A stretch of DNA of 35,106 nucleotides. It comes from a virus. Both the position numbers and the translations under genes were made by a program. How positions within the stretch are numbered: the stretch's first letter is position 1; every line of letters starts with the position of its first letter. The notes under the pieces are model-generated. The model was not told the DNA's origin. It did no database searches and saw only the letters and a list, made by a program, of their open reading frames with translations. This document shows, piece after piece, positions 9,423 to 35,004 of the stretch. The stretch covers positions 1 to 35,106 of the IMG/VR virus record IMGVR_UViG_3300042565_001418; one strand, given 5' to 3'.

Positions 9423-9575
9423 CTAGTCTTGGGTTTCTCCGCAATGCTTGCATCGGATAATATTGACGCCTCCCATTGATAAACGTTCAATCTTTTCCGA
9501 CCCACAGTAGAAACAGGTTTTGCTTTCGGGCTTGCGGTAGATCTTTTTCTTTCGGGGCTTGGGCTGGTCTTTCAT
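9423..9575 (-). CDS. Small zinc-ribbon protein
   Basis: A 50-residue protein with two CxxC pairs, TCFYCGS at 20-26 and RCKHCGE at 41-47, spaced as in a treble-clef or zinc-ribbon knuckle. The N-terminal 18 residues are basic (KPRKKKIYRKP), so nucleic-acid binding is likely. The start overlaps the endolysin stop as ATGA and the next gene begins four bases after its stop, so the reading frame fits the operon exactly. It is short and overlaps the upstream extension of the 9158-9418 frame, so it is easy to miss. Confidence 0.82.
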   Translation of the reverse strand: MKDQPKPRKKKIYRKPESKTCFYCGSEKIERLSMGGVNIIRCKHCGETQD

Positions 9576-11284
9576 CGCGCTGTTGACGAGTTAATCCTGA
9601 CGTAATTCCTTACCAATGAAGATGTTCTGGTTTTGAGCCACACGCCGTCACCAGAGGCAGAATCTCGCGTTCCTCGACCATTGGTATTGTGTGTAGGTAT
9701 GTAATTATCAGTAATGAAAAGTTTTGATTTTGCGGACACGGAAATACACTGAACTTCTCCCGTTCCGCAACTTTCAACAGAAACAATCCTTCTAGCCCAT
9801 GCTGCATTTCTAAATTTAAACCTGTCGGCCTTTCTTTTTAATCTGAACAAATTAAAAAACGGCATATTTATGTTTTGAAGTCTGTAACAATCTCTGGCTC
9901 TTTTGGGTGTTTTTTGGGTTGGGGATGTATAAAATATATTTGTTTTCAGATTCAAAGCACAACGCCCGCCCAACGAACGAATGACATCCATTAAATCTTC
10001 GCTAAGTTTTTGAGATGATGAGGCAAATTCGCACCTTCCAATCTTATCAACGGTTCCATCCGAGTCCATTAAACCCTGAACCAAACTTAATCTATCTTCA
10101 ATAGATGCCATTTTGTATGCGTATGGTATAAACTTCTCAAAAGATTTTTTACCGTAAAGACCTAACCCCTTTAAAATGCGTATCATTTCGTTTTTCCCAG
10201 TTATTGAAACAATCCTGTGGTTTCCCCTTACCGCATTTTTATTTGAAATGTGGGGCTTGATAATATGTCCAGAGATAAGACTATTTCCAACATAATTAAT
10301 TATCTCTTCATCAACATTTGTAAAACCCAAATAGCCTCCAGACATTCCGCCTTCTCCCAAAAGCAAACCCATTAAATATGGATCTATGGGAAGATCATCG
10401 CTTTTTGCAAAATCTACTGGATGTATTTGCGGAACCCTTGGTCTTGCTTTTGTTTTTTCAATAAGATATTTAAGGTCAACAGTGCTCAACACTTTGTCTT
10501 TAACGCCATAGACCTGAACCGTCCATAAATGCTCATCACACGCAATTGCGCTGGATTTATCTTGTAGACTAATCTTGTATAGATCTCTTTTACCTTTTTT
10601 AAAAACTCCAGTAACAAATGATGTTTCGCCGCTTGGATCAACGACTGCATCTCCAACCTTAATATCTTTCATTAATTTAAACCCATTCGGCGTCAAAACT
10701 TTTGATGTTAACGGCAGGGCATTTCCCTCCACGCATTGGAAGTTTTTTTCACCAACCTTGACCACAATCCCGATATGGGAAAAATCAAAGATGACAAAGT
10801 CCCCCACTTGAGGCTTGGCTTTTGAGGATAAAACCTTGGTGGTAGCGGGACGCCCCTTTGCCCACTGGATATACCCGAATGCTGCTGCGGTCTTGGGTCT
10901 CCACTTGTCAGGAGTCATCACCTTTAGCCCCAGCCACTCGGCATTCTCCTTGTCCTTGAGCCACTCTTGAATTACCCAACCCGTAAACGCCGCACACCAC
11001 GGCCATGAAGCTGGCTTCAGACTGGTTGCCGATTGGTACTTGCGGATCTTGGCCCCGTTGTTGTTGCCGCCAGACTCCTTCACCCCGACTTGGGATAGGG
11101 CAATCTTGGCCAGATTCTCAAGAGCCTTTGGGGTCTTCTGTTTCGGGGCGGGCTTGGCCTTGGCTTCTTTTGGCGGTTCGGGCTTTAAGCTCTCTTGCGA
11201 TTCGGACGGCAAGCTCGGTGAGGACGGCGCTTGGCCAGTATCAAAGCCGATAAAACCAAAGAGTTTCTGGATTAACTTTAACAT
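9572..11284 (-). CDS. CHAP-type endolysin interrupted by an intein
   Basis: A 570-residue precursor. Residues 20-55 are a Pro/Lys/Ser-rich linker after an amphipathic start. The CHAP/NlpC-like domain begins near 55, with Cys97 (WPWCAAFTGWV), GDFVIFDFSHIGIVV giving His170, and EGN at 186-188 as a possible third catalytic position. Residues 189-533 are an intein. Ligation of 1-188 to 534-570 gives a 225-residue enzyme whose tail reads TNGRGTRDSASGDGVWLKTR. Once spliced it should cut peptidoglycan at the end of infection. The gene sits beside holin-like genes and its stop overlaps the zinc-ribbon start. There is no signal peptide, so export probably depends on a holin. Confidence 0.92.
   Translation of the reverse strand: MLKLIQKLFGFIGFDTGQAPSSPSLPSESQESLKPEPPKEAKAKPAPKQKTPKALENLAKIALSQVGVKESGGNNNGAKIRKYQSATSLKPASWPWCAAFTGWVIQEWLKDKENAEWLGLKVMTPDKWRPKTAAAFGYIQWAKGRPATTKVLSSKAKPQVGDFVIFDFSHIGIVVKVGEKNFQCVEGNALPLTSKVLTPNGFKLMKDIKVGDAVVDPSGETSFVTGVFKKGKRDLYKISLQDKSSAIACDEHLWTVQVYGVKDKVLSTVDLKYLIEKTKARPRVPQIHPVDFAKSDDLPIDPYLMGLLLGEGGMSGGYLGFTNVDEEIINYVGNSLISGHIIKPHISNKNAVRGNHRIVSITGKNEMIRILKGLGLYGKKSFEKFIPYAYKMASIEDRLSLVQGLMDSDGTVDKIGRCEFASSSQKLSEDLMDVIRSLGGRCALNLKTNIFYTSPTQKTPKRARDCYRLQNINMPFFNLFRLKRKADRFKFRNAAWARRIVSVESCGTGEVQCISVSAKSKLFITDNYIPTHNTNGRGTRDSASGDGVWLKTRTSSLVRNYVRINSSTAR
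9686..10720 (-). mobile_element. Intein with LAGLIDADG endonuclease domain, class 3 features
   Basis: A 345-residue intein inserted between Asn188 and Thr534 of the endolysin precursor. It starts ALPLTSKVLTPNGF, so residue 1 is Ala instead of Cys or Ser. Block B has CDEHLWTV (His64, Trp66), block F has VQCISV (Cys325), and block G ends IPTHN (Thr343, His344, Asn345) before a +1 Thr. Trp, Cys and Thr at these three places form the WCT set that defines class 3 inteins, which start splicing from the block F Cys. LMGLLLGEGG at 116-125 and LVQGLMDSDG at 213-222 are both LAGLIDADG motifs with their acidic residues (Glu123, Asp221), so the homing endonuclease may be active. The insert looks AT-richer than the exteins. 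Confidence 0.93.
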
Positions 11285-17009: not shown

Positions 17010-19280
17010 TTATGCTGTTGTAGCCATCGGGGGTCGGCCTGCGGGTCTGGCTGTTTTCTCAAGAATGGAACTGCGGGTTTTAAGATCATTAAGAGCCATT
17101 TGTTGACGAATGGTCTCCATTTTCTGCTGGTGCGTCTCTTGGTTCATCATCCGCTTTTCCTGCATCTCAGCTAGTTTCAACTGGGCTTTCTGGAGTTCCA
17201 TTTCGGATCGTGGATCAATCTGTCCTTGCGGGGCTTCCTGCATGGCTTGCTCTTGTGCTTGGCCTTGTTGAGCCATCATGCGGTTGATGACCTGTTGCTC
17301 AAGTTCATCGATATAAGCAGTGAGATTTTGGAGTTGGCGTTTAAGTTCGCGGACCTCCTGCGCCCGATAGCTATTATTGGAGAAAAAGACAAGATGTTCG
17401 GTTACATGGTCAGCAGCAGGACGCAAGATCTGCATCGCCTGCTCATCGGCCATTTGCTGTTGGCGGTGGGCCTCAATGATCTCGGCAATCATCGGGATGT
17501 GGGCCTCAATGTGAACCGCATGGTTCTGGCTATCGTGAACCATCTGAGGAATGCCCTGACGGAGGTTGCCATTCTCAAGGTTGGCGATATCAAAGTCCAC
17601 CACACGGCGCGGGCCTTTGTCGGAGACGAAGAGATTGACCTTCTGCCAGCCCACGCCAGAAATGCCAGCAATGACGGAACGTAGGGTATTTTCTTTCCCT
17701 TTCTCGTCCATCAAAGAATAAAGTTCCATGAGTTGCTTGCTCGCCATTTCTGTCATTACGGGGCTTCCGTCACCCATGGCGCGGAATGCCGTAACCTTGA
17801 GGAACTGGCGCATGCGCTCAATAGAAACTCCTCTACGCGCACAACGCCTACGGAACTCAAGGGCAAGTTGACCACCCTTATCATTAGCAGTAAGGAGAGG
17901 ATTAACAGCCCTGCGGTATTGTTCGGTTAGAAGCTTGTTGTAAGGAGTGTAGAAAAGTTCCAGTGCTGCGGCGTTGAGCGTGGATTCTTGGCGGGCTTGC
18001 TGGACAACTTCAGTAGCAGAACGTGCCTGTCCGTCTGGAGTGGCCTGACGGGAACGATAGCTGCCCGTATTGTTTTGTAAAACTTGGCTCATCAGGTTGT
18101 AGACAGGAAGACCCTGAGTGGCAATCGACGGCGGTTGAAGTTGGATCGGGGTCAGCCCACTAGGGATGAACGTGTAAGGCCCGACCTCAATATATTGAAA
18201 GTCTTGGATGGCTTCGGCGTCACCCTGCAACTGGATCAAGCCAGAGGTAATAGCGGCTTGGGCCGACTGACAGAGAACCCTGTTGGAAATCTGGATCTGG
18301 TTGTAGATCTTCTGCTTGAGTCCGCGAATCGTATGGAAGGTTCCTTGTCCGACTCCATAGGTGAAGATGACGAAGCACTGGTTCACGTTGCCATAGCGGG
18401 AATACCGCTCGTAGAGGAAGTCCGAAGAGTCGCGGGAGCCGATAAGTTGGGTGAACTTGCCATCGAATTCGCGGTTGTAGCCATAGATTAACTGGGCGCG
18501 GTGATAGGCCGATTCTCCTGCATAGAGGTCATTCTCTTTAATCTCGCGCTCAAAGTCTTCCCAATGAGCGGTGTAATTTTTCCATTGATCGCGCTTAGTC
18601 GAAGCTTTCCAGATGGCTTGCTTGACTGAGTTGATGTTCCAGCCCAGTTCTTTCGCGGCTTTGGGATTGCGGATATAGCGGTAAAGCTCGCTTACACTCA
18701 TGGAGCGTTGGACGATAGCTACTTCAATAGACTCATCTGATACTTTGGTATCACGGGCTACCTTGAAGTCTTTAAGTCCGCAAGGCTCCCAAAATATGGA
18801 GCGTTCGTCGGGCCACATGGCCACCCCGACTCCGTCACCCACAAACTCGCGGGAAAGAAGCTGCATATTATAGGCATGGTCGCTCCACTCCTTTAGCATC
18901 CAATCAAACTCCTCAGAGATAATTTCGGAGTCTTCATTGGAATCCCCATCATAGGAGTTCATAATGACGTTAGCAATGCGCGGCACCCCGTTCTGAAGTT
19001 CGATATACGGGGCCAAGGCCGCTTCCATGATGGCATTGGCCTCTCCAAAGTTGGCATTAACCACATGGGTTAGTCCCTTGCTTTTCAGTTCTTCGGCATC
19101 ATAGGGCGCTTCTCCGTTGACAAGGGCTTGCGCTCGCGCCCGAAGATATGCCGCATCCTCATCTTGTTCGATATACTTGTTGGCGATTGCCACAAGGCTA
19201 TCAGATGATTTAATGCGTTTTTTCGGGGGGCTACCACTCTCTGGTAGATTTTCCAGTTCTGCGTTTCCTTGAGAAGCCAT
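17010..19280 (-). CDS. Portal (head-tail connector) protein, podovirus type
   Basis: A 756-residue protein, long as in podovirus portals. After a disordered start, residues 25-60 form a helix (VAIANKYIEQDEDAAYLRAR). The body has YNREFDGKFTQLIGSRD, a clip/wing region with HTIRGLKQKIYNQIQISNRV, and a tunnel-like helix region with RSATEVVQQARQESTLNAAA and LFYTPYNKLLTEQYRRAV. The last 120 residues are a Gln-rich coiled coil (RELKRQLQNLTAYIDELEQQ and onward), like the barrel or crown of long portals. Twelve copies usually form the DNA channel and bind the terminase. The gene follows the tail-fibre cassette and precedes the scaffold. I recognise the type by length, pattern and place, not by a single motif. 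Confidence 0.85.
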   Translation of the reverse strand: MASQGNAELENLPESGSPPKKRIKSSDSLVAIANKYIEQDEDAAYLRARAQALVNGEAPYDAEELKSKGLTHVVNANFGEANAIMEAALAPYIELQNGVPRIANVIMNSYDGDSNEDSEIISEEFDWMLKEWSDHAYNMQLLSREFVGDGVGVAMWPDERSIFWEPCGLKDFKVARDTKVSDESIEVAIVQRSMSVSELYRYIRNPKAAKELGWNINSVKQAIWKASTKRDQWKNYTAHWEDFEREIKENDLYAGESAYHRAQLIYGYNREFDGKFTQLIGSRDSSDFLYERYSRYGNVNQCFVIFTYGVGQGTFHTIRGLKQKIYNQIQISNRVLCQSAQAAITSGLIQLQGDAEAIQDFQYIEVGPYTFIPSGLTPIQLQPPSIATQGLPVYNLMSQVLQNNTGSYRSRQATPDGQARSATEVVQQARQESTLNAAALELFYTPYNKLLTEQYRRAVNPLLTANDKGGQLALEFRRRCARRGVSIERMRQFLKVTAFRAMGDGSPVMTEMASKQLMELYSLMDEKGKENTLRSVIAGISGVGWQKVNLFVSDKGPRRVVDFDIANLENGNLRQGIPQMVHDSQNHAVHIEAHIPMIAEIIEAHRQQQMADEQAMQILRPAADHVTEHLVFFSNNSYRAQEVRELKRQLQNLTAYIDELEQQVINRMMAQQGQAQEQAMQEAPQGQIDPRSEMELQKAQLKLAEMQEKRMMNQETHQQKMETIRQQMALNDLKTRSSILEKTARPAGRPPMATTA

Positions 19281-19307: not shown

Positions 19308-19685
19308 CTATTGTGTCCAGCCAGTAATAATACCATTGGAGATGGATACTGTATTGGTGTTGGTTACGGCGTCTACGAAAGTAATGTTGGTGGTAATTCC
19401 GCCTCCAAGCTGAAGATTTGTTCTAACAGAAGCCACAATATTTGTTAAAAATGAAATGGTATTTGTGAAAGTTAGTGTATTGGTATTTGTGTAAGTGATT
19501 TGACCGTTAGTTGAGTTAAATAGCAGTGGTCGCTGGTTCGTTCCATATAACGTATTTTGGTTTGCTGTTAAAAAATTGGTTGGCCTCTGCACTACACCGT
19601 TAGCGTCTACCATGACAGTGCGAAAATTTGTTTGGCCGTAAGCGCAACCTACCAACAAGATTAATAGTGTTATTGCTGTTTTCAT
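19308..19685 (-). CDS. Exported Thr/Asn-rich protein, short relative of the 785-residue fibre-like protein
   Basis: A 125-residue protein. The N-terminus is a signal peptide (MKTAITLLILLVGCAYGQTN); LVGC also fits a lipobox, so it may be a lipoprotein. Residues 23-39 (VMVDANGVVQRPTNFL) match the start of the 785-residue protein encoded at 24385-26742. The rest is Thr/Asn-rich (TNTNTLTFTNTISFLTN), consistent with a short beta-fibre. It starts in an ATGA overlap with the beta-helix gene, so it belongs to the tail-fibre unit. It could be a shortened duplicate of the larger gene. A signal peptide on a virion protein is unusual. Confidence 0.7.
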   Translation of the reverse strand: MKTAITLLILLVGCAYGQTNFRTVMVDANGVVQRPTNFLTANQNTLYGTNQRPLLFNSTNGQITYTNTNTLTFTNTISFLTNIVASVRTNLQLGGGITTNITFVDAVTNTNTVSISNGIITGWTQ

Positions 19686-21955
19686 GCCGTTATTTGAAGT
19701 TCTCCATCATTCGTTACTGACAATGTATATCTCGTATTATTTGGGGAGATTAAAAATAATTCTGATCCCTTTGTTTGATAAAATATATTAGTTGGTGCCG
19801 TCACAAACGATCCTCGCATTTGGCCCAAAATTACTGGAGATAGTCCAGAAATTCCGTAATTATAGCCATAGAAATAATTATTATTAACATATGTTTGCCA
19901 CTGAGAACTTGCATCTCCGCCACTATTAATCGTCGTAATAGCAGATGTTTGTTGACCAGCTTCTGCTGACTTTATGGCATAAAAAATATTGTTTGAAACT
20001 GTAACACCCTGTCTGCCAATAGTCAAAGAAGATCCAGTTGTGGCATCGTCTGTAAAAAATATGTTGTTGTCTATAATAGAATTAGGCATAGACATTTGAT
20101 TATTGGGGTCAAATAAAACAGCGCCAACAAGTTTTGACTTGGTGTTATTAATTACATTTCCATTAATAATTGAAAATCCAGACCTACACAATGATCCCGT
20201 GGGATTTAATCGAATAGATGAACCGCAATCAAAATAACAATTACTAATTGTGCATGGGGTGCCAGCCATAATTGCTGGACCCATTCTCCAATCATAAAAT
20301 TCAGCCACAGCAGTTGCTCCAATGCCGTTTCCACCTTCAATAGTTACACTTGGCTGAGTTGTGTAAAAATGGGCACCAGCGTTTAATGATATAGATTGCA
20401 CACTGCCACCAGAAATATTTGCAGTTCCTATTGCAGAACCACCACCAGAAATTGTTACTGTAGGCGAAGATGTGTATCCGCTCCCACCATTTGTAACGCG
20501 AATTCTGAACAATCTGCTTGATCCGTTTTCCCTTGTAATAACAGGATCGGATACAAAAGTGCAATTTGTTACAGAGCCAGTAGCTTCTCTTCCAATTTCA
20601 AACAAAGTAAGCTCGGCATATGGAATTGTTGTTCCAGCAGTGACTCCTTCTTGTAGTTCTGTTCTTGCTGAATCCAGCGGAAAAATTAAAGAATCTGGCA
20701 TTCGCGTAAGAGTCACCTGTGATTGATTGGATACAATCGGTGAAGGTGCCGCATCAACACGATACACTCCAGCAGTCCACGTTCTCCAAAGATTTTGTGA
20801 AGCAAAAAGATTGTTTGCATTGTTGGTCCATATCATTGTGTATAATTTACCAACAATAAGCTCTTCATTACTGTTAAACATAGAACCAACAGTAACTGTT
20901 ACTTGAGACCCAACAGCGGGCTGTACAAAAGATTGAAGAGGGGCAACCCTTGCAAATGGACCGTGTAGAAAGACCGCCTCAACCCACATATTTCTAAAAT
21001 GGCTATTAGATATTTGCGTATGATATGGATTCATGTATAGCCAGCCATCAACAGGAAAAGTAACGTCATTTCCAATTTTTCCGTTTACGGCACCATCAGC
21101 ATAAACACCGTCCGCATTAAGCGTTTCTACCCAACTGCTCAAATTAAGCATTTGCCCACCACCAGAAGTTCTGTTTGCTCCAGACCCTTTTGGATGCAAG
21201 TGTTTACAATTCAGCCATTCAACCAGTCTTAGTTTTCTATAAGTCTTACTTGTTGAGTATCCTTGATTTTCTATAACAGCGGCCATTCCGTTGACAAAAG
21301 TAACATTTTTGCATGTTAAATGATCAATAGGATTTGTTGACACTGGTCGCATGGCAATAAATGAATCACCAGCCCAGTATGCATTTCCATTTTCTCCGCG
21401 AGTTTGTGGCCCTCGTTCAAATGTGAAATTGTGAAATTCAATAGAAAATAGTTCAGACGTTATGCCAAAAAAATAAGAAAGCGTGTTGTCTGCAACCTGA
21501 TCGGTGTAAAGCTTTGCATTGTTTCCACTAAAAATAATTCTCGTTGACGAAGTTCCTCCCACAATTTCCATATGTACGCGATTTGCGTTTAACGGAGAAA
21601 TAGATCCCAATGTTGGTGTCTTGAAATTAATTAATTTGTATGTTTTTGGTTCAAATTCAATAATTGCATTACCAAGACTAATTGCGTGATTAATAGCGTC
21701 TTGAATGGCTTCGGCATCATCAGTGACTCCATCTCCAACTGCGCCGAAATCTGCCACTCTAACCACTTCTGAGAATCGGCTAGAAAGCGTCCTAGCCGTG
21801 GCTCCAGCAGACCCCGAATGGGCCAAAACGCTACCAGTTCCCGCTGTAGCTGCTGGTAAAGCTCCGACAATCCTACTATCATCTCCTTCCGCATAGGTGC
21901 CTGCGGTGGTGCCAGCTACTACTGGTAATGGGTAATATGCAGAGAGGGAGGCCAT
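19682..21955 (-). CDS. Tailspike-like protein with pectate-lyase-type beta helix
   Basis: A 757-residue protein. A short head-binding-like N-terminus of about 60 residues (TAGTYAEGDDSRIVGALPA) leads into VRVADFGAVGDGVTDDAEAI at 65-84, the classical opening of pectate_lyase_3 beta-helix tailspikes. Repeated beta strands follow (for example SNCYFDCGSSIRLNPTGSL and NNIFYAIKSAEA). Gly-rich GGSGYTSSPTVTISGGGSAI sits near residue 495. The C-terminus reads NNTRYTLSVTNDGELQITA. Such spikes bind and often cut surface polysaccharide. The gene is AT-richer than the fibre gene before it, so it may have been swapped in from another phage. Confidence 0.88.
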   Translation of the reverse strand: MASLSAYYPLPVVAGTTAGTYAEGDDSRIVGALPAATAGTGSVLAHSGSAGATARTLSSRFSEVVRVADFGAVGDGVTDDAEAIQDAINHAISLGNAIIEFEPKTYKLINFKTPTLGSISPLNANRVHMEIVGGTSSTRIIFSGNNAKLYTDQVADNTLSYFFGITSELFSIEFHNFTFERGPQTRGENGNAYWAGDSFIAMRPVSTNPIDHLTCKNVTFVNGMAAVIENQGYSTSKTYRKLRLVEWLNCKHLHPKGSGANRTSGGGQMLNLSSWVETLNADGVYADGAVNGKIGNDVTFPVDGWLYMNPYHTQISNSHFRNMWVEAVFLHGPFARVAPLQSFVQPAVGSQVTVTVGSMFNSNEELIVGKLYTMIWTNNANNLFASQNLWRTWTAGVYRVDAAPSPIVSNQSQVTLTRMPDSLIFPLDSARTELQEGVTAGTTIPYAELTLFEIGREATGSVTNCTFVSDPVITRENGSSRLFRIRVTNGGSGYTSSPTVTISGGGSAIGTANISGGSVQSISLNAGAHFYTTQPSVTIEGGNGIGATAVAEFYDWRMGPAIMAGTPCTISNCYFDCGSSIRLNPTGSLCRSGFSIINGNVINNTKSKLVGAVLFDPNNQMSMPNSIIDNNIFFTDDATTGSSLTIGRQGVTVSNNIFYAIKSAEAGQQTSAITTINSGGDASSQWQTYVNNNYFYGYNYGISGLSPVILGQMRGSFVTAPTNIFYQTKGSELFLISPNNTRYTLSVTNDGELQITA

Positions 21956-21996: not shown

Positions 21997-22407
21997 TTAT
22001 GTTTCGGGGTTCGGGGTCTCGCCCTCCGTCAACTGCTTCTCAATAGATACCGCCACAGGCAAAAGCTGGGATGCGGCGTTGAGCCCTCCTGCTTTGGTTG
22101 CGATGTCCAGAGCTTGCATGTCAATGCGGGCCAGATCGGCGTCGAGGAGGGCAGCGACCACTTCTTGCACGACTTCGGCAAAGCTGTGGGGCGGCTCGGT
22201 GAGTGCGGCTTCGATGTTGTCGGGGTCGAGGGCGGCGGTGAAAATAAGCTCGTTGAGCCACTGCTGGAGGGCATCGGCCTTCACGGAGGTGCGGTCGGCT
22301 TGGGTAAGGAGTTGCCGCAGGTAGATGAGAAGTGCAGGACGGTCGCGAGACAGCACATGGTCGTCCAAGTGTGCCTGCACGCGGTGGAGTGCGGTTTCGG
22401 CGGTCAT
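21997..22407 (-). CDS. Hypothetical helical protein, possible fibre chaperone
   Basis: A 136-residue, mostly helical acidic protein: LHRVQAHLDDHVLSRDRPAL, then YLRQLLTQADRTSVKADALQ, then AEVVQEVVAALLDADLARID. No family is recognised. It starts in an ATGA overlap with the collagen-motif fibre gene and shares its high GC content, so the two probably moved together. A small helical protein right after a fibre gene could be a fibre assembly chaperone, but that is only positional inference. Confidence 0.65.
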   Translation of the reverse strand: MTAETALHRVQAHLDDHVLSRDRPALLIYLRQLLTQADRTSVKADALQQWLNELIFTAALDPDNIEAALTEPPHSFAEVVQEVVAALLDADLARIDMQALDIATKAGGLNAASQLLPVAVSIEKQLTEGETPNPET

Positions 22408-24023
22408 GTGATGGGGATCAATACAACTCGTGAAGAGCTTTTGAGCGTGCTGGTGTTCGCGCTGGAGCTAACGAGCGCCCAGTTAAAATCGACTGTTCCA
22501 CCAGCCGTGAATCGGACGGTCGAAATAGAAAAAACGGCCCCAACGAGTCCCGAGCTTGTTTGTGCAGCGGTGGCCCGAAAGGCGCGGATAGAGGTCGAGC
22601 TAGGCGCGACCAGCGCGTTAGTGGTGCTGCTGTTGACGCATTGAATACCGTTGGCTGTAGCGCCGCCGTTGATATTCGGCGTTGATGCGTCTAACACGCA
22701 GCCGCCGCCGCTGGCTGCGACATCAAGTTGCAGGGAGGCGATGACTAAATAGTTGGTATTGGCCTGCGCGGTGAAGCTCATGCCTGCAACAGATGCGGGC
22801 GTGGTGCTGGTGGTGTTTGCGTCTGAGGTTGGTGCCAAGACCACAGTGCCGTTGAGTTTGGAGAGTATTAGGTCTGAAAGGAGGGCGAGGGTTCCGCTTG
22901 CTGCTGGAGCAGTTAATGTAACCGTGGATGTTGTGGGAACATTAGTGTCTACTTCAAAAGCGATTTTCTTGGAGGAATCTGAAGATCCGACAATGCGTAG
23001 ATCTGCATCTGAAATGGCGTCGATGTTTCGGGATGAGGCCGTGCCCAAGGTTGGCTTATTTAAGATTTGCGCGTCTCCACTGACGGCATCCCAATCTGCG
23101 TTGACATTGACTTCTGCCCCGTCTGCCACATTCAATATAGTCCTTACTTGGCTTGCTGATAAGTCTTCGGGGTCGCCCGTGGAGGCTGTGGCCCGCCCCT
23201 TGATGGTCGATTGGGCCATGTTGGACAGCTTGGTATTATCCACTGCGTCATTGGCTATGGTGGCGGCGAATGACCCCGTCCCGCTTCCTGTTACATTACC
23301 CGTGAGAGTAATTGTCTGATCACCCGTGTTGGTTCCTGTGATTGCATCCAGCTTCGTTTTATCCGCACTGCTCATGCTACCAGCCGCCGAAGTAGTGGCC
23401 GCGCTGATGCTGATTGCGGGGGTTGCCCCACCAGAAGAAGCGATAGGGGCGGTTCCCGTGACGCTGGTTACGCCAGTCGCGGGCGCTGCCCCCCATTCTG
23501 GTGCGGTGGAAGTGCTATTTACTTTAAGGATCTGCCCTGCGGTGCCGATAGGAAGTCGTTCGTTGACCAAAGGGCCGCGATAGAGGGTATCGCCTTGGTT
23601 GGTGAGGATAGATTCTCCTCCTCCTCCAGAAGTTCCATAGCGAGGTAGAATCTGCCATCCACGGGTTACCCCCGTATAGATCATCGTGAAATAGGCTCCT
23701 TCGACATTGCAGACGAGGTTTTCTTCGATAGATTCGATTCTTTCCCCGTTTCGGGCGATGGTCAGGGGATTGGTGTCGAAGGTCTCCGAGTAGTCGAAGA
23801 TATCGATGGAGTCTCCTTCATTCGGGTTGAGCGGGAGAGTAAGAGTAAACGTACCTCCAGAAGTATCTGCGGCGATATTCTGAGAATTAGAAAGCGTTTG
23901 CGGACTAGAGACTACCGTGTAGTTGATGTTAGCTTGCGGGCCAGTTGGCCCAGCAGGGCCGCGCTCCACCACCTCAATGATCTCAATCTCCCTCTCTGTG
24001 ATCTCAATGACCTCTTGGCTCAT
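22404..24023 (-). CDS. Tail fibre protein with collagen-like start and phage fibre repeats
   Basis: A 539-residue protein. After a charged start (EITEREIEIIEVVERGPAGP) comes a short collagen-like GPAGPTGP at 22-29. A beta domain follows (FTLTLPLNPNEGDSIDIFDY). Residues 150-230 carry repeats typical of tail fibres (PLVNERLPIGTAGQILKVNS; MSSADKTKLDAITG at 217-230). Residues 275-315 continue with GRATASTGDPEDLSASQV. The C-terminal part (NYLVIASLQLDVAASGGG) is a beta domain probably used for receptor contact. It follows a small BppU-like gene as in many tail-tip modules. The gene is GC-richer than its neighbours. Confidence 0.85.
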   Translation of the reverse strand: MSQEVIEITEREIEIIEVVERGPAGPTGPQANINYTVVSSPQTLSNSQNIAADTSGGTFTLTLPLNPNEGDSIDIFDYSETFDTNPLTIARNGERIESIEENLVCNVEGAYFTMIYTGVTRGWQILPRYGTSGGGGESILTNQGDTLYRGPLVNERLPIGTAGQILKVNSTSTAPEWGAAPATGVTSVTGTAPIASSGGATPAISISAATTSAAGSMSSADKTKLDAITGTNTGDQTITLTGNVTGSGTGSFAATIANDAVDNTKLSNMAQSTIKGRATASTGDPEDLSASQVRTILNVADGAEVNVNADWDAVSGDAQILNKPTLGTASSRNIDAISDADLRIVGSSDSSKKIAFEVDTNVPTTSTVTLTAPAASGTLALLSDLILSKLNGTVVLAPTSDANTTSTTPASVAGMSFTAQANTNYLVIASLQLDVAASGGGCVLDASTPNINGGATANGIQCVNSSTTNALVAPSSTSIRAFRATAAQTSSGLVGAVFSISTVRFTAGGTVDFNWALVSSSANTSTLKSSSRVVLIPIT

Positions 24024-24388
24024 CGGGCAATCTCCTGATAGACTTTAGCCTTACCTGTGGCGAATGCGATATAGGTGTAGCCTTGGTAGAGTTCGATTTC
24101 GTAGACGTTGTCGCCTGCGGTCAGGTTTGCGGCCTGTGTGGCGGTGATTTCGATTTCGATGGTGCCCGCTGCCCCTCCCAATGTAATCCCGCTTCCAGAG
24201 GTCAATGTGAGCAAAGTAGCACTATCCTTCGCGCACTCACGGATGACCATGTTGGCCCCGTAGCCCGAAAGATTGACTGGGACATTAGACTTTCCCTTGC
24301 AGGACTTAGTCAGATAACGAAACTTCGCCGTCCATGTCTTTCCTTGGACGATTTCAATATCTCTCTCAAGTCTCCAGTAGTTGGTCAT
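24020..24388 (-). CDS. BppU-N-like small tail or baseplate protein, copy B
   Basis: A 122-residue protein. After WRLERDIEIVQGKTWTAKFR it has PVNLSGYGANMVIRE, then GTIEIEITATQAANL, then YEIELYQG, the layout of BppU N-terminal-type phage proteins that join fibres to the tail tip. It aligns along its whole length with the protein encoded at 27068-27436 (PVNLAGFTAKMHIRS, GSIRLFISASDTASL, YDLELYDG), so the two genes are paralogues of equal length. It overlaps both flanking genes by four bases. Confidence 0.8.
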   Translation of the reverse strand: MTNYWRLERDIEIVQGKTWTAKFRYLTKSCKGKSNVPVNLSGYGANMVIRECAKDSATLLTLTSGSGITLGGAAGTIEIEITATQAANLTAGDNVYEIELYQGYTYIAFATGKAKVYQEIAR

Positions 24389-26742
24389 TGAAACAGGGGA
24401 ATGCGGAAGGTCTGATTGGTTCCGCCGATATTCAAAGTAACATCCATCCAGCGAACTGCTGTATTGAAGTTTACTTGGTTTGAATTAGCCGTATTAGTGG
24501 GTGCGGCGTTGGTCGTGAACACTGCTGCTTGGAAGTTTGTAGGAGTCCAGTTTGTTAAAGTTGAGCCGACATTTCCAATTACATAAGTTGTTCCAAAAGT
24601 GGAATTTAAACCTGTTGATCTTGTAAGGTTTCCTCCAGTAGTTGCACCAACAATTAAAGATCCTCCACTAAGACCTCCAAGAGAAACATTGCTGAACGTT
24701 GGAATATTGGTGGCACCAAGTTCGAGGTTGGTGCGGGTTGTTGCGGCGTTTGTTGTGCTGGCAAAGCTAATTGCGCCAACGGTATTCATTCCGCTTCCTC
24801 CAAGATTCCATTCTCCGCCGCTTCCTAGGGTAAGATCTCCTTCTTCAAAATCAATTTCTCCATTAAATCCAATTATTCCAGTATTGGTAAATGTATAATC
24901 ACCAATAACAATTTTATTAAATGTAACATCATTCGTCGCGCCTAACCCAATCGCCGTGCGAAAATTCGTGACGTTGGCGTTGGTGAGCCAAGCTGCACCG
25001 AGGCCGAGGTTGGTGCGATTGACCCCAGCAAATGCGCCAATCGTAAAACTGTTGGTGTCTTCGGTTAGCTCAATGCTTTGAAAGTTTGGTTCACTTGTCT
25101 CCCCCAACCCAATCTCCGTGCGGAAATTTGTTACATTTGTATTAGTGAGCCATGAAGCCCCCAATCCTAAATTTGTTCTGCTTGCCGCCGCATTGGCTGC
25201 TGCGTTGGTTCCCGAAAAATAGATAGGCTCAATGTAGGAGATGTTGTCGGCCAACCTCCATTCTCCGCTTCGATACATCAGTAGAACCGTCTCATCAAGC
25301 TGGTTGAGTGTGATTAGGTTGGTTGCCGCACCCAACTGCCTAATTGCTGTCACTGCATTGGTTGAATTGGCAAGATGGGTAATAGTAGCTCTATCTCCTT
25401 CAAATGTGGTTGCGGGATTCGTGGGTAATGTCACCGTATTGGTAACCCCAGATACAGAAGGAGCAAGGCTGAACAAGAATAGGTTGCGGCTATTTGTCGC
25501 GGCATTTGTTGATGTTCCAGTAACATTTGTCTGGTATTGAACAGTTGTGGATATCGGGGCCGCTTGCCAAAAGTTGGTCGGGCTTACCACTTCTCCGTTG
25601 GTGTTGACCAAAACTGGATTGGTATTAGACCCAAAGAGAGCCGCTTGGAATGTTGCGGCGTTGGTATTGGTTAGCCCGCTCCAAGGAAGTCCAAGGTTGG
25701 TGCGAGTTTGAGCCTGATACAATGGGCGATTTGTTGCGCCACCAATCTGAATTGCGCCAGAATCAAATGTCCATTCTCCAAAAAATATTCTTGTTTCTGG
25801 CTCGATTATGTCATTAGTTCCCCATCTTATTACGGACTCGCTTAAATACAGATCCCCCAAATTTACCGTTTCAAATGTCACGCTATTAGTGGTTCCAAGC
25901 CCGATGGCATTACGGAAATTTGTGGCATCTGTATTTGTAAGCGCAGACCAGCCCAATCCAAGATTGGTTCTTGCGGTTGCGGCGTTAGTAGATGCGGTTC
26001 CGCCGTTAGCCAATGCCACTACCCCCGTAACGTTTGTGGCCAGTGGGGCTGTTCCTACAATATTAGAAGCCAACGCTACAGTTCCCGTAATATTTGCTGC
26101 GGTAATATTGCTTAATCCTGAAGCATTTCCGTTGGTTGCAAGCTTTGTATCAAGATTTGACTGAAGATTAACAACTCCTGAAATGGGAATATTAGTCAAA
26201 AATGCGCCATTATTTGTAGACAAATTGGTTAAATTTGTGCTGGCTGGTTGAAATGCTGTAACCGAACTAGTTGCGACAGTTCCAAGTAAAAGTGCCGCTC
26301 TTGCAGCTTCTGCATTTGTAGCAATAAAAACTGCGTCTCCAATTGTTGTTATTCCAAGATTCTGTCTAGCATTTGCAGCATTGGTAGCGCCTGTTCCACC
26401 TTGAGTAATCGAAAGGGTTCCAGCGAAATTAGTGAATGTTACTGAGGGAATGTTTGACGCTGCTATAACCCCGACAATACTTGTGGATTGGAGGTTGGTT
26501 AGCGCCCCACCATTACTAGTGGCAAGATTTGAAAGTGCCGCTGAAGAAGCTTGAAATGCAGTTGCTGGGTTTGTTGCAGCAGTCCCCAATCCAAGTCCAG
26601 TGCGAGCATTGGAGGCATCAACACTCCAGAAATTTGTTGGCTGAACAACAGTATTATTTGTTCCCACAAGAACATTTCGCGTTTGTCCGAAGCCAGAAAC
26701 AACCAAGGCTCCACCGATAATAAGTGAGAGAATATATTTCAT
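24385..26742 (-). CDS. Exported Thr/Asn-rich fibre-like protein with repeats
   Basis: A 785-residue protein. The N-terminus is a Sec signal peptide (MKYILSLIIGGALVVSGFGQ). The rest is built of phage fibre repeats around TNAATARTNLGLG and LTNTNVTNFRTEIGLG. Copies begin near 45, 120, 253, 345, 415, 517, 572 and 664. The PTNFW module occurs at 35-39 and 388-392, each time after a DANG-like turn, and again in the 125-residue protein encoded at 19308. The C-terminus (MDVTLNIGGTNQTFRIPLFQ) is a beta domain. Composition and repeats say tail fibre, whereas the signal peptide says export. It lies between the two BppU-like genes. Confidence 0.8.
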   Translation of the reverse strand: MKYILSLIIGGALVVSGFGQTRNVLVGTNNTVVQPTNFWSVDASNARTGLGLGTAATNPATAFQASSAALSNLATSNGGALTNLQSTSIVGVIAASNIPSVTFTNFAGTLSITQGGTGATNAANARQNLGITTIGDAVFIATNAEAARAALLLGTVATSSVTAFQPASTNLTNLSTNNGAFLTNIPISGVVNLQSNLDTKLATNGNASGLSNITAANITGTVALASNIVGTAPLATNVTGVVALANGGTASTNAATARTNLGLGWSALTNTDATNFRNAIGLGTTNSVTFETVNLGDLYLSESVIRWGTNDIIEPETRIFFGEWTFDSGAIQIGGATNRPLYQAQTRTNLGLPWSGLTNTNAATFQAALFGSNTNPVLVNTNGEVVSPTNFWQAAPISTTVQYQTNVTGTSTNAATNSRNLFLFSLAPSVSGVTNTVTLPTNPATTFEGDRATITHLANSTNAVTAIRQLGAATNLITLNQLDETVLLMYRSGEWRLADNISYIEPIYFSGTNAAANAAASRTNLGLGASWLTNTNVTNFRTEIGLGETSEPNFQSIELTEDTNSFTIGAFAGVNRTNLGLGAAWLTNANVTNFRTAIGLGATNDVTFNKIVIGDYTFTNTGIIGFNGEIDFEEGDLTLGSGGEWNLGGSGMNTVGAISFASTTNAATTRTNLELGATNIPTFSNVSLGGLSGGSLIVGATTGGNLTRSTGLNSTFGTTYVIGNVGSTLTNWTPTNFQAAVFTTNAAPTNTANSNQVNFNTAVRWMDVTLNIGGTNQTFRIPLFQ

Positions 26743-26743
26743 T

Positions 26744-27067
26744 TTACATTAGTCGCTTCCAAACCCGCTTTGTTCCTGTTTGGCTATCATAGTCATTGGG
26801 TCGGACTACGAATGGGAGACTTTGATCATCAGTTCCGTTGGTCAGTTGATAAATGGCTGGGATTCCGTCGATCACCAAAAAGATAACAATCCCAACAGCA
26901 TAAGTTCCACTAACCGTATTGAGTCCATCAAGATTAGTCGATCCGCCGCCATCCAATCCCGTAACAGATGGCTCCACGCGAAGGATATTGACGCTTGGAG
27001 TTTGAATCGGCGTTGATGAGACGCCGATAACGCTGGAAGAAGGAATGGGGATGCAAATCTTGCTCAT
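26744..27067 (-). CDS. Small hypothetical protein of the tail-fibre cassette
   Basis: A 107-residue protein. The middle is GLDGGGSTNLDGLNTVSGTY followed by a hydrophobic strand (AVGIVIFLVIDGIPAIYQL), then DSQTGTKRVWKRLM. The hydrophobic stretch is probably a buried beta strand, because it carries Asp, Gly and Pro. The family is not recognised. It begins directly after the stop of the BppU-like gene and ends one base before the next start, so it is part of the fibre operon. A tail-tip adaptor role is possible. Confidence 0.65.
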   Translation of the reverse strand: MSKICIPIPSSSVIGVSSTPIQTPSVNILRVEPSVTGLDGGGSTNLDGLNTVSGTYAVGIVIFLVIDGIPAIYQLTNGTDDQSLPFVVRPNDYDSQTGTKRVWKRLM

Positions 27068-27436
27068 TTAGCGGGTAACCTCTGGTGAAATGATAACATT
27101 ACCTTGTAGGATTCGGGTTGTGATGGCCCCATCGTATAACTCAAGGTCATATACGGCTTTATCGCAGACGGAGAGGGAGGCGGTGTCGGACGCCGAAATA
27201 AATAGTCTAATAGATCCTGTAGTTTCATTCAAGATAATTCTACCATTGCCTACAGCAGTAGACAATTCAAGAATTAGTGCTTTGGATTCGGGCTTTGACC
27301 TGATGTGCATCTTGGCCGTAAACCCAGCAAGGTTGACGGGAGCCGAAGGTTCGCCCGTCTCATAGAAAAGAGTCTGATTAAATGTTGCTCCTTGGAATAT
27401 ACAAATATCGGCAACAGCAATAGGTAATTCGGCCAT
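27068..27436 (-). CDS. BppU-N-like small tail or baseplate protein, copy A
   Basis: A 122-residue protein: ICIFQGATFNQTLFYETGEP, then PVNLAGFTAKMHIRS, then GSIRLFISASDTASL, YDLELYDG and a closing VIISPEVTR. This is the pattern of BppU N-terminal-like proteins found before receptor-binding genes in many tailed phages. It is the paralogue of the gene at 24020-24388, so the fibre cassette was partly duplicated. It is the first gene after the large terminase, 18 bases from its stop. Confidence 0.82.
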   Translation of the reverse strand: MAELPIAVADICIFQGATFNQTLFYETGEPSAPVNLAGFTAKMHIRSKPESKALILELSTAVGNGRIILNETTGSIRLFISASDTASLSVCDKAVYDLELYDGAITTRILQGNVIISPEVTR

Positions 27437-27454: not shown

Positions 27455-29296
27455 CTACCAATTCTTCCTTAGAGTCAAGGCTTGTTTAAGTTTCTTGAAG
27501 GTTTCTTTATTAACTCTTTTCTTTTCTTCTATCGCTTCTGATCCCGCCATGGCTCCAAAGACTTTACGGGCGACAAACAATCCTACAGCAAATGAGTCAA
27601 ATAAGTCGGGGGACTTTCCTATCCGTTTTTTCATATCGGTCTTGGACTCAATGATGATCTTTCTGGTTCGGCGCACATACTTCCTCTGGGTCATCTCCCA
27701 TGCCAAATCGGGGCTGATGCCCTTTAGTTGTTCACATTCTAGGAAGTAGCGGGCGGCGAAGCACAGTTCTGAAGCCATGTTGTGGAACAATTCCTTGCCG
27801 ACTTGGGGTTTTCCCGTGACCTCGTTCCTCATGGCGTATTGGGCACTTACTGGCAAATCTGAAGCCGCCCCTGCAAAACTCACTGCATGCCAACCCTTTA
27901 GGAGTTCTCGTTCTCCGATTGACCAGAAAATACCACCCGCCGAAGCATCTACCCCCATCCACTGATTTGGAATTCCCAATTTGAGAGAGAGATCATGAAT
28001 TTGCTGGATCATCTCATATTGGAAGTCTTCTTGAGATCCCGCCCTCCTATTGAGGACATACTGTTTCTCGACAGCTATCGCCCATTTACCACTGATCAGC
28101 TTGCCATACTTGAGGTGGGTGAAGACAAACCTATCGCCACCTTCGGTGTAGCTAGGGTCAATTCCTGCAATATCTTTCGGGGTTCCGTCCCAGATCGGCT
28201 TGTCTAGCGCACCATGGCGAGCTAGGAGGATATCAGAGACAATCGTGGAGTCATCAGCATCAGCGGGAGGCCAGAAGCCCCTAAACTTTCTCCAATACTG
28301 GGGGTTGAGTTCTCCAAGTTCCTTTCGGGCTAATGCCACATCGTTTGGTTTTGGGAGGAACGGGTAGCGGAGTCCCTTTCCAGCATCGAAGGACTGTTGG
28401 TTGGGATTGTCGTTCTCTGAGTCAAATCGTATGCATACTCCCTCAATACCAGCCACTCGTATCTTCCAGTTCGGGGTTTGCTCGTCCACACTCATCCACC
28501 CCTTGATCGGTTCGCAAAATTTTCCGTGGGGATCAAAAATGGAGGACGGGTTACCCGCTCCAACGATATAGAGTTCTTGTGCGCCCTTAAATCCCCACAC
28601 AGCCTCGTTAATTACGGAAGCCGAACAATCTTGCAACTCATCGATTATCAACACGATACGACGATTCTTTTTACCCTGAAGTCGTTTTTGGGCATCATCT
28701 TTGTATTCATCACCCGCTGCTAGAAGCATGATTGATGAAGCATCGCTTACCCCTGTTTCGGGATCGATAATCGCCCCCTCCTCGTCCGAAAGCTTGATAA
28801 TGTCCATGGATTCGATGAGCCTTCCAGAGGCTAGTCCCATGTTTCGGGCTTCGCGATACATCTTGACCAGTGCTGCCCAGATGCGCTGCTTGGCGTCTAT
28901 TTTGCTCGTAGAGACCACAATGGTCATCGTATTGATTGGATCACAGAACCAGTTGACAAGAGCGAACGCCGCCATGCCATAAGACTTACCAGAGTCAGTT
29001 CCGCCAGCCAGACCAGTCACGCTTCGGACAAATCGATTGCCAGTTGCCCCGTCTACCTCGTAGACTTGATTGCAGAATGCCTGTGCGCTAAGTTCCGCCC
29101 ACCTATGCCACTGAAAAGCTGGCCAAATAGCAGAGACAATATTTCGGTAATGCCTAGCTTTTCCGAGTCCGCCTTCTTCGGGTGTTAACCCCTGCAAGAA
29201 AGCATCCATCTCAATACGGATCGGTGTAATCGCCTGTCCGTCTTTGGGTAACCACAACCTCCCGTATTTCTCTATCCCTTGATCAACTGTTGCCAT
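27455..29296 (-). CDS. terL: Terminase large subunit
   Basis: A 613-residue packaging ATPase and nuclease. Walker A is GGTDSGKS at 98-105 and Walker B is IVLIIDELQD at 214-223, with acidic 219-220. The C-terminal RNase H-like nuclease has AGIDPSY (Asp380), GVDASAGG (Asp450) and KSPDLFDSFAVG (Asp564, Asp567), as expected for three acidic metal sites. It pumps DNA through the portal and cuts concatemers. Length is typical. The leader has no Shine-Dalgarno. The gene is head-to-head with the small subunit gene, only 28 bases apart, and heads the long structural unit. Confidence 0.95.
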   Translation of the reverse strand: MATVDQGIEKYGRLWLPKDGQAITPIRIEMDAFLQGLTPEEGGLGKARHYRNIVSAIWPAFQWHRWAELSAQAFCNQVYEVDGATGNRFVRSVTGLAGGTDSGKSYGMAAFALVNWFCDPINTMTIVVSTSKIDAKQRIWAALVKMYREARNMGLASGRLIESMDIIKLSDEEGAIIDPETGVSDASSIMLLAAGDEYKDDAQKRLQGKKNRRIVLIIDELQDCSASVINEAVWGFKGAQELYIVGAGNPSSIFDPHGKFCEPIKGWMSVDEQTPNWKIRVAGIEGVCIRFDSENDNPNQQSFDAGKGLRYPFLPKPNDVALARKELGELNPQYWRKFRGFWPPADADDSTIVSDILLARHGALDKPIWDGTPKDIAGIDPSYTEGGDRFVFTHLKYGKLISGKWAIAVEKQYVLNRRAGSQEDFQYEMIQQIHDLSLKLGIPNQWMGVDASAGGIFWSIGERELLKGWHAVSFAGAASDLPVSAQYAMRNEVTGKPQVGKELFHNMASELCFAARYFLECEQLKGISPDLAWEMTQRKYVRRTRKIIIESKTDMKKRIGKSPDLFDSFAVGLFVARKVFGAMAGSEAIEEKKRVNKETFKKLKQALTLRKNW

Positions 29297-33526: not shown

Positions 33527-33913
33527 ATGACAAGAAAAACTCCACTTCGTTCAAAAACTCCACTTAAACGCAGCGGAAGGTTGCGGTATGCATCCCCCAA
33601 GCGCCAGAGTGAATACAAGGAGTATGCAAAGGTAAAAAAAGCCTACTTGGCACTGCATCCCGTATGTGAGAAATGCAAGAAGGCGAAGAGTCAGGATATC
33701 CATCATAGGGCAGGCAGGGCTGGTCGCTATCTTTGTGACTACAGTCTGTTTGCCGCGCTTTGTCGAGCCTGCCATGACTTTATCCACCAGAATGGCAGAG
33801 AAGCCCGCAAGCAGGGCTGGATTATTGATACAGTTCATGTTCCTCAGTATCTGGCGGAAGAGCCTTCAGAAGTTCAATCTCCGCGCCAAAGTCAGGCTCA
33901 TACTCACGAATAA
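33527..33913 (+). CDS. HNH endonuclease
   Basis: A 128-residue protein. A basic N-terminus (MTRKTPLRSKTPLKRSGRLR) precedes the zinc-supported HNH domain: Cys47-x2-Cys50, HH at 59-60, then CRACHDFIH at 79-87 with Cys79, Cys82, His83 and His87. This form resembles small phage HNH proteins that assist packaging or recombination (NinG-like starts with the same KTPLK pattern). The ATG at 33512 is less likely than this one. The final 92 bases overlap the lipoprotein gene on the other strand, and the C-terminal tail after residue 105 is low in complexity. Confidence 0.85.
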   Translation: MTRKTPLRSKTPLKRSGRLRYASPKRQSEYKEYAKVKKAYLALHPVCEKCKKAKSQDIHHRAGRAGRYLCDYSLFAALCRACHDFIHQNGREARKQGWIIDTVHVPQYLAEEPSEVQSPRQSQAHTHE

Positions 33914-34109
33914 GCGGATTCCACACTTTATTGCGCGGTGCTGTCAGATTCCGCCAGTTATCAACAAGATTAAGCCAGCTAGTCTCCAGCGGGGCGTTCC
34001 ATTCCTCTTCTGGTGGGAAGTTCCAAGGATAGGGTCGCGGATAAGAAGCGCAACCACTTGCAATAAGTAGTGCTAATCCTATCCCTGCTCTTTGAAGTCG
34101 TAAAACCAT
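33822..34109 (-). CDS. Small lipoprotein, possible outer-membrane spanin
   Basis: A 95-residue protein with a signal peptide ending LLIASGCAS, so Cys20 is the probable lipidated residue. The mature part is Pro/Trp-rich at first (YPRPYPWNFPPEEEWNAP), then acidic. Small phage lipoproteins of this length often serve as outer-membrane spanins in Gram-negative hosts. No adjacent inner-membrane partner is seen, since the lysis cassette is far away. AGGAGGAG just before the ATG is the strongest Shine-Dalgarno in the window, although it lies inside the upstream coding region. Confidence 0.7.
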   Translation of the reverse strand: MVLRLQRAGIGLALLIASGCASYPRPYPWNFPPEEEWNAPLETSWLNLVDNWRNLTAPRNKVWNPLIREYEPDFGAEIELLKALPPDTEEHELYQ

Positions 34110-34726
34110 AGCTCCTCCTCGCTTTCACTAACCCACCTGCTGCCTGTATGCTCGCAGCTAAACTCTTGGCTGAAAACCTTCCAGTTGGGCTTGGTTGGGA
34201 ATTTTTTAGCGATAAACGATCCGCCGTCCATCCATAACACACGGTTGTTGGGTTGGATGAAGTATTGCCCATCTCCCGCAAACACATGGCCGCATTTGTG
34301 TCCAGCAGCCATCTCTCCATAGCCACTTGTGTAATGGGGACCAAGGCACCAATCCAAGGTAAACATATACTTGGCCTTCTCAAAGTTTTTGTTCTTGAGC
34401 ATTATGTTCGCTGCCCGATTCTTGCAGTAGTCCAAGATGTTAACCGAACAGTAATAACTCATGGAATCCCAAAGTTGTATCCAATCCAGAGGGTAAAACG
34501 TGCCACCAATTTCCTCAGTGTGGAGATAGTGGATCGGAACTCTGGCATGCTGGCTTCCGTATTCTGTCATCACGCTAAACAACCCGCAACGTTGAGGGAT
34601 GGAGGTGAAGGCAAATACTTCGACTAGTTGTCTTTCCCTGCTGACGCTGGGTTCCAAATCGTAGAAAAATCCCTCGTCTACGAAAGCAAAGAAGGTTGGG
34701 ATGTTGACGTTGAGATAGTTGCTCAT
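34079..34726 (-). CDS. Conserved hypothetical phage protein
   Basis: A 215-residue protein rich in aromatic residues and Cys: FFAFVDEGFFYDLEPSVSRE, then FAFTSIPQRCGLFSVMTEYG, then YPLDWIQLWDSMSYYCSVN. The N-terminal pattern seems familiar from other phage genomes, but I cannot give a function. It contains no signal peptide or zinc cluster. It overlaps the exported coiled-coil gene as ATGA and the lipoprotein gene by 31 bases. Confidence 0.7.
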   Translation of the reverse strand: MSNYLNVNIPTFFAFVDEGFFYDLEPSVSRERQLVEVFAFTSIPQRCGLFSVMTEYGSQHARVPIHYLHTEEIGGTFYPLDWIQLWDSMSYYCSVNILDYCKNRAANIMLKNKNFEKAKYMFTLDWCLGPHYTSGYGEMAAGHKCGHVFAGDGQYFIQPNNRVLWMDGGSFIAKKFPTKPNWKVFSQEFSCEHTGSRWVSESEEELWFYDFKEQG

Positions 34727-35004
34727 TGGTCGGCAATTTTGCGAAGGAGTCGCGTCTGCTCGCGCAGTTCGTAGAGTTGATTGTTCGCTGTAATCTCCGC
34801 ACTCAAACGGGCGTTTGATTCGGCCAACTCCGCATTGATGCGGCGAAGGGTGGTAAGATACGGGCTTTCAGTGGGCTTAACCTCCACCGATCCCCTAATA
34901 ACTTGAATTCGGCCCGAATTTAAATCATAGACCGTTCCATTGAACGATCCGTCTTGGGCAAGGGTATTACTCAGTAATAGGGGTAGTAGTAGTAGTTTTT
35001 TCAT
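34723..35004 (-). CDS. Exported small coiled-coil protein
   Basis: A 93-residue protein. Residues 1-16 (MKKLLLLPLLLSNTLAQ) are a signal peptide with cleavage probably after Ala16. The mature part has a beta hairpin (GTVYDLNSGRIQVIRGSVEV) and a helical region at 48-90 (TTLRRINAELAESNARLSAE) that should form a coiled coil. It is probably periplasmic. Together with the lipoprotein two genes later it could act at the envelope during lysis or exclusion; this is inference. The frame is open to 35100, but only this Met starts a signal peptide. Confidence 0.7.
   Translation of the reverse strand: MKKLLLLPLLLSNTLAQDGSFNGTVYDLNSGRIQVIRGSVEVKPTESPYLTTLRRINAELAESNARLSAEITANNQLYELREQTRLLRKIADQ

Follow-up and report, generated by a model that had tools for sequence, protein, structure and literature searches.

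A fibre-like protein with a conserved predicted Sec signal in a lineage of uncultured phages and in Verrucomicrobiota prophages

The assembly of tailed-phage virions is regarded as an entirely cytoplasmic process, and their tail fibres are normally made in the cytoplasm without signal peptides. Phage Lambda carries a signal-bearing gene, lom, within its tail-fibre region, the product of which is an outer-membrane beta-barrel moron and not a fibre. We know of no precedent for an exported fibre that is assembled onto a cytoplasmic tailed virion, and no account of phages of the kind studied here having a class of signal-bearing fibres was found in the open-access literature, most subscription journals being outside the scope of that search. 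Llp of phage T5 jams FhuA from the periplasm (PMC9586334), and adhesion is mediated by pneumococcal PblB, a prophage protein that resembles a tail fibre and is predicted to have a signal peptide (PMC4508584); as described in the latter paper, permeabilisation in the course of the lytic cycle sets free the PblB of Streptococcus mitis. For the isolated verrucophage P8625, none of the proteins is reported to have a predicted signal peptide (PMC4642752). The present study concerns FIB785, a 785-aa fibre-like protein of an uncultured phage that, judged from its sequence and that of its relatives, is very probably a genuinely exported phage fibre.

The window, by which we mean the whole stretch of DNA analysed, is a 35-kb virus record (IMGVR_UViG_3300042565_001418, 35,106 nucleotides) that encodes a terminase, a DnaB helicase, a pectate-lyase-type tailspike, a CHAP endolysin, and a probable portal. 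FIB785 lies in a late structural operon on the minus strand, the order of which is the large terminase (27455..29296; phrog_2, 3e-14), a 122-aa protein without a signal (27068..27436; phrog_1084/phrog_3304), a 107-aa protein (26744..27067), FIB785 itself (24385..26742), a further 122-aa protein without a signal (24020..24388; phrog_1084 and weakly phrog_3304, L-shaped tail fibre assembly), a 539-aa collagen-like tail-fibre protein (22404..24023), a 136-aa protein, a tailspike with a pectate-lyase-like domain and no signal (19682..21955), a second signal-bearing, fibre-type protein of 125 aa (19308..19685), and the probable portal protein (17010..19280), which was named from size and position only and had no family match in Pfam or PHROGs. 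The ATG of FIB785 is at 26742, one base past the adjoining stop of the 107-aa gene directly upstream, and the gene overlaps the next one by 4 bp; its place between terminase and portal is fixed across relatives. Elsewhere in the window, the CHAP-type endolysin gene (9572-11284, minus strand) is split by a ~345-aa intein that contains a LAGLIDADG homing-endonuclease domain; the intein begins with a Cys beyond the CHAP match and has HN as its last residues. Two short minus-strand ORFs, 33822-34109 and 33551-33838, have lipobox-like starts (IASGC, with a good ribosome-binding site, and ALGGC, respectively) and are candidates for spanin-type lysis or superinfection lipoproteins, and a 215-aa protein (34079-34726, minus strand) matches phrog_3704 ('ferredoxin', moron/auxiliary category; 3e-36).

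A preliminary description of this DNA had placed a 785-residue ORF at 24385-26742 without giving a strand, and this ORF was recovered on the minus strand, the plus-strand reading being broken by many stops. The signal region with n-, h-, and c-parts and the phage-fibre repeats that it had reported are likewise present: Lys2 is followed by a 12-residue hydrophobic core and a predicted cleavage site after Gly19 and before Gln20, and TNAATARTNLGLG-type repeats follow the signal. By our home-made scorer, the signal peptide (residues 1-19, MKYILSLIIGGALVVSGFG; 26686..26742), continued by the mature N-terminal motif (residues 20-39, QTRNVLVGTNNTVVQPTNFW; 26626..26685), is a textbook Sec/signal-peptidase-I signal with small residues at -3 and -1; it holds no Cys and hence no lipobox of the Llp/Cor type. 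An internal copy of the motif, PVLVNTNGEVVSPTNFW (residues 376-392; 25567..25617, minus strand), has no preceding signal. The PHROGs matches of FIB785 were weak and consistently 'tail fiber protein' (best E 6e-5, range 6e-5 to 2e-3), and Pfam returned zero matches. AlphaFold models were of low confidence (pLDDT 41 for the full length and 61 for the mid-domain), and Foldseek found no match to them at E <= 0.001; a profile comparison likewise gave no significant relation between the mid-domain and the shaft module of the unsignalled fibre (probability 5.5%), and that identification was dropped.

More than 100 relatives of FIB785 were found in IMG/VR. The first search had been seeded partly on motifs adjoining the signal, so it was rerun with the terminase as an unbiased anchor, giving 80 loci, 73 of which had enough downstream DNA. 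The large ORF after the terminase bore a signal in all 73, of which 72 were called by the scorer (cut-off 30) and one by eye at 29.8 (L229, which carries a further signal-bearing gene in front of the fibre); because nine of these loci are duplicates and most of the terminases are >90% identical, the 73 are not independent events. Homologues lacking the hydrophobic start, which would have counted against the signal, were sought and none was encountered among the terminase-seeded fibres, and every FIB785 homologue scored as signal-bearing once its true N-terminus was read. Within the lineage, 103 of the 103 N-terminal copies of the mature motif in complete frames lie in signal-bearing ORFs (one further copy, cut by a contig end, falls outside this count, and internal copies sit inside the same proteins). 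Two loci, L239 and L265, were considered as signal-free copies and rejected: a model of the motif without its signal matched at residue 208 of an open frame, and the gene as called opens with a signal that lies well ahead of the motif.

The signals themselves have little sequence in common and the same architecture (MKYILSLIIGGALVVSGFG, MKNIFTIIAVLFFVASAYA, MKKTFLFAALLMFASLGLA, MKFLITAIACLSFAASAWS, and MKKLSTIAILLASSFFAGA), such that between lineages the sequence is almost wholly replaced and what persists is Lys2, the hydrophobic core, and a small residue at -1. This turnover is a stronger argument than the 73/73 count that the predicted signal is genuine. In the same phage loci, none of the 636 proteins from 18 other families scored as a signal peptide, a set that takes in the collagen-like fibre (63 copies) and the tailspike (23 copies). 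Signals were scored in three families: FIB785, its 125-aa paralogue (MKTAITLLILLVGCAYG before QTNFRTVMVDANGVVQRPTNF), the relatives of which are longer, and the predicted exported 93-aa protein at 34723..35004 (minus strand; MKKLLLLPLLLSNTLA before Q), with a signal in 28/28 relatives. A few members of these three families at first seemed to be exceptions, which proved to be errors of alignment once the true N-terminus was read. A lipoprotein reading of the 125-aa paralogue was ruled out, as its LVGC is not conserved in the homologue from L058/L059. From these patterns, the predicted signal on FIB785 is not an accident.

The design of signal, VxVDTNGxVxxPTNF motif, and fibre recurs in several Verrucomicrobiota prophages beside capsid, portal, and tape-measure genes, and further proteins of this design were found by a profile search of 388 Verrucomicrobiota genomes. 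Near the signal-bearing fibres, L148, L151, and L264 have a major head gene matching phrog_1005 and L150 one matching phrog_267; L150 adds a head-tail adaptor/portal match and L151 a tape measure. The fibres of L150 and L264 contain a Pfam Collar domain (PF07484) above cut-off. In L264 and L265, the fibre comes after a short non-signal gene and before another gene without a signal, which in L264 is collagen-like. Directly downstream of the major head gene, these two prophages also encode 130-aa signal-bearing proteins (L264:5559-5951 and L265:6470-6862), and in L152, a possible prophage (G344:C15, 6726-9747), five consecutive short signal-bearing genes lie near a 2237-aa protein. In L149 (G183:C16, 7684-10461), a 925-aa protein of the same design is possibly a domesticated or host-origin version. 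The sole genome_contigs match was L131, a Verrucomicrobiaceae MAG contig that has fibre-like genes and a run of several signal-bearing ORFs. The uncultured FIB785 phages probably infect Verrucomicrobiota, an assignment that depends on these homologues, one of which (L149) sits among apparent host genes, and that falls short of proof. Across 50,697 phage records, no named-phage homologue of the FIB785 fibre was found, nor was one found for the L131 homologue, and the terminase had one match (27% identity over 41%); a terminase relative in G192 (27% identical) showed no signal-bearing fibre in the ~38 kb read around it.

Signals were not a general feature of comparable proteins. Collar proteins of ten cultured phages had a signal in 0/10 cases, so virion fibres do not need one, and most of the readable best-scoring Collar proteins in Verrucomicrobiota were clearly without a signal (7/30 were not resolved by the script, some perhaps having been read on the wrong strand), which ruled out signals as a general trait of the tail proteins of this phylum. 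Given these two controls and the lack of signals in P8625, the signal belongs to one fibre family and not to the phylum or to Collar proteins.

The variation of FIB785 is of the fibre type, with a constant N-terminus and a variable C-terminus: N-terminal similarity is 0.70 versus 0.71 in the unsignalled fibre, and C-terminal similarity 0.21 versus 0.12. Some C-terminal modules are common to FIB785 relatives, the 125-aa paralogue, and the unsignalled fibre. Because it lies in the structural operon and has a variation profile almost equal to that of its unsignalled neighbour, FIB785 is probably a real tail fibre, and the conserved signal on so fast-evolving a fibre suggests that it leaves the cytoplasm before acting or meeting the virion. 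We infer its export, cleavage, docking role, and virion association, as follows. Late in infection, SecYEG would export FIB785, signal peptidase I would cut after Gly19, and the mature fibre, from Gln20, would fold outside the cytoplasm; the conserved N-terminal segment QTRNVxVxTNxxVVxPTNFW may be the docking or trimer-nucleating end and the swappable C-terminal modules the binding end. Most likely, the fibre would then join virions in the periplasm, or at lysis when periplasmic fibres mix with cytoplasmic particles, which is the simplest union of the operon, variation, and signal facts. We put this whole chain of Sec export, cleavage, docking, and virion joining forward tentatively, as nearly an even matter. 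More speculative is the wider proposal of a two-compartment line, in which a Sec-exported, periplasmically folded fibre is fitted outside the cytoplasm at or after lysis and which Verrucomicrobiota phages of different tail types have reused.

The chief alternative to virion joining is a role at the surface or in receptor masking. The exported fibre would then be no part of the virion and would remain with the infected cell or lysogen, in its periplasm or at its surface, either binding the phage's own receptor (for superinfection exclusion or for protection of progeny from debris) or acting as a surface adhesin. Such a mask should match the virion's binding tip, yet the tip coupling of the two fibres is weak and does not exceed that of the N-terminus control (Mantel r 0.12, p 0.04; control r 0.20), and FIB785 relatives are genes of 500-1650 aa in a structural operon, whereas known exclusion proteins are mostly small. 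Masking or adhesion explains the signal directly and fits it equally well, has precedents in T5 Llp (PMC9586334) and pneumococcal PblB (PMC4508584), and accords with the L149 homologue, whose neighbours are polysaccharide-synthesis-type genes, none visibly of phage type; the virion-type Collar domain in two prophage homologues points the other way. As the role fits the operon, the size, and the uncoupled tip evolution less well than a virion fibre does, we judge it possible but rather unlikely.

The preliminary description had offered two readings of the hydrophobic start, of which export is well supported and a membrane or virion anchor is less likely, since even highly divergent signals retain the cleavage signature at -3 and -1. 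Export draws on the universal conservation of the signal, its sequence-independent turnover, a constrained cleavage site, Cys depletion, and recurrence in unrelated prophages. Among 69 distinct FIB785 genes, Lys2 is invariant and positions -1 and -3 show no residue other than G, A, or S. The h-region has a dN/dS of 0.50, compared with 0.19 for the c-region and 0.02 for codons 20-40 of the mature part; the predicted cleavage region is under purifying selection. FIB785 homologues contain 2 Cys in 64,070 residues versus 130 in 35,673 for the unsignalled fibre, or ~100-fold fewer, a depletion that fits extracytoplasmic proteins and to which repeat composition could partly contribute; distant prophage homologues do contain some Cys. 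A need of export for disulphides was ruled out, FIB785 being essentially without Cys. With a lysine in front of it, the 12-residue core could instead remain uncleaved and anchor the fibre to the inner membrane or the virion, and the G-F-G site of the window copy is acceptable and not optimal; the core is short, however, divergent lineages have A-x-A versions of the site, and the small -1 residue has survived near-complete sequence turnover under the c-region constraint noted above, which makes an anchor improbable. An ordinary cytoplasmic virion fibre with an inefficient or bypassed signal, which would suit the structural-gene context and could hold for some of the protein, is just as doubtful, because selection keeps the signal in every relative and the 69 genes have no in-frame start downstream of it that is both conserved and preceded by a ribosome-binding site (57/69 have TTG at codon 13, only four with SD-like bases; 8/69 have GTG at codon 26).

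A selected export signal on a fibre throughout a lineage and in unrelated prophages of one phylum would either break the cytoplasm-only rule of virion assembly or mark an unrecognised class of phage-made surface fibres, and either outcome would change the reading of host range, superinfection, and receptor-binding genes in these little-studied phages.

Set beside the described systems, FIB785 resembles T5 Llp and Cor as a phage protein with an export signal whose gene lies beside receptor-binding genes, and differs from them in that they are small superinfection-exclusion lipoproteins acting on FhuA and not fibres (PMC9586334), with a lipoprotein signal where FIB785 has a type I signal. PblA and PblB of Streptococcus mitis phage SM1 and pneumococcal PblB are, like FIB785, tail-fibre-like, and the Pbl proteins reach the cell surface; their host is Gram-positive, and no sequence relation to FIB785 has been shown. 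Tail fibres and tail collar fibres (PHROG 1591, 11393, and 523; PF07484) are like FIB785 in structural-operon position, repeats, constant N-terminus, and variable C-terminus, and the Collar domain occurs in its prophage homologues, but the Collar proteins of cultured phages and the collagen-like fibre lack the signal (0/10 and 0/63). FIB785 has the fibre modules, with weak PHROG matches, and the structural-operon place of a phage tail fibre, and departs from the usual, perhaps not defining, trait of a cytoplasmic fibre made without a signal.
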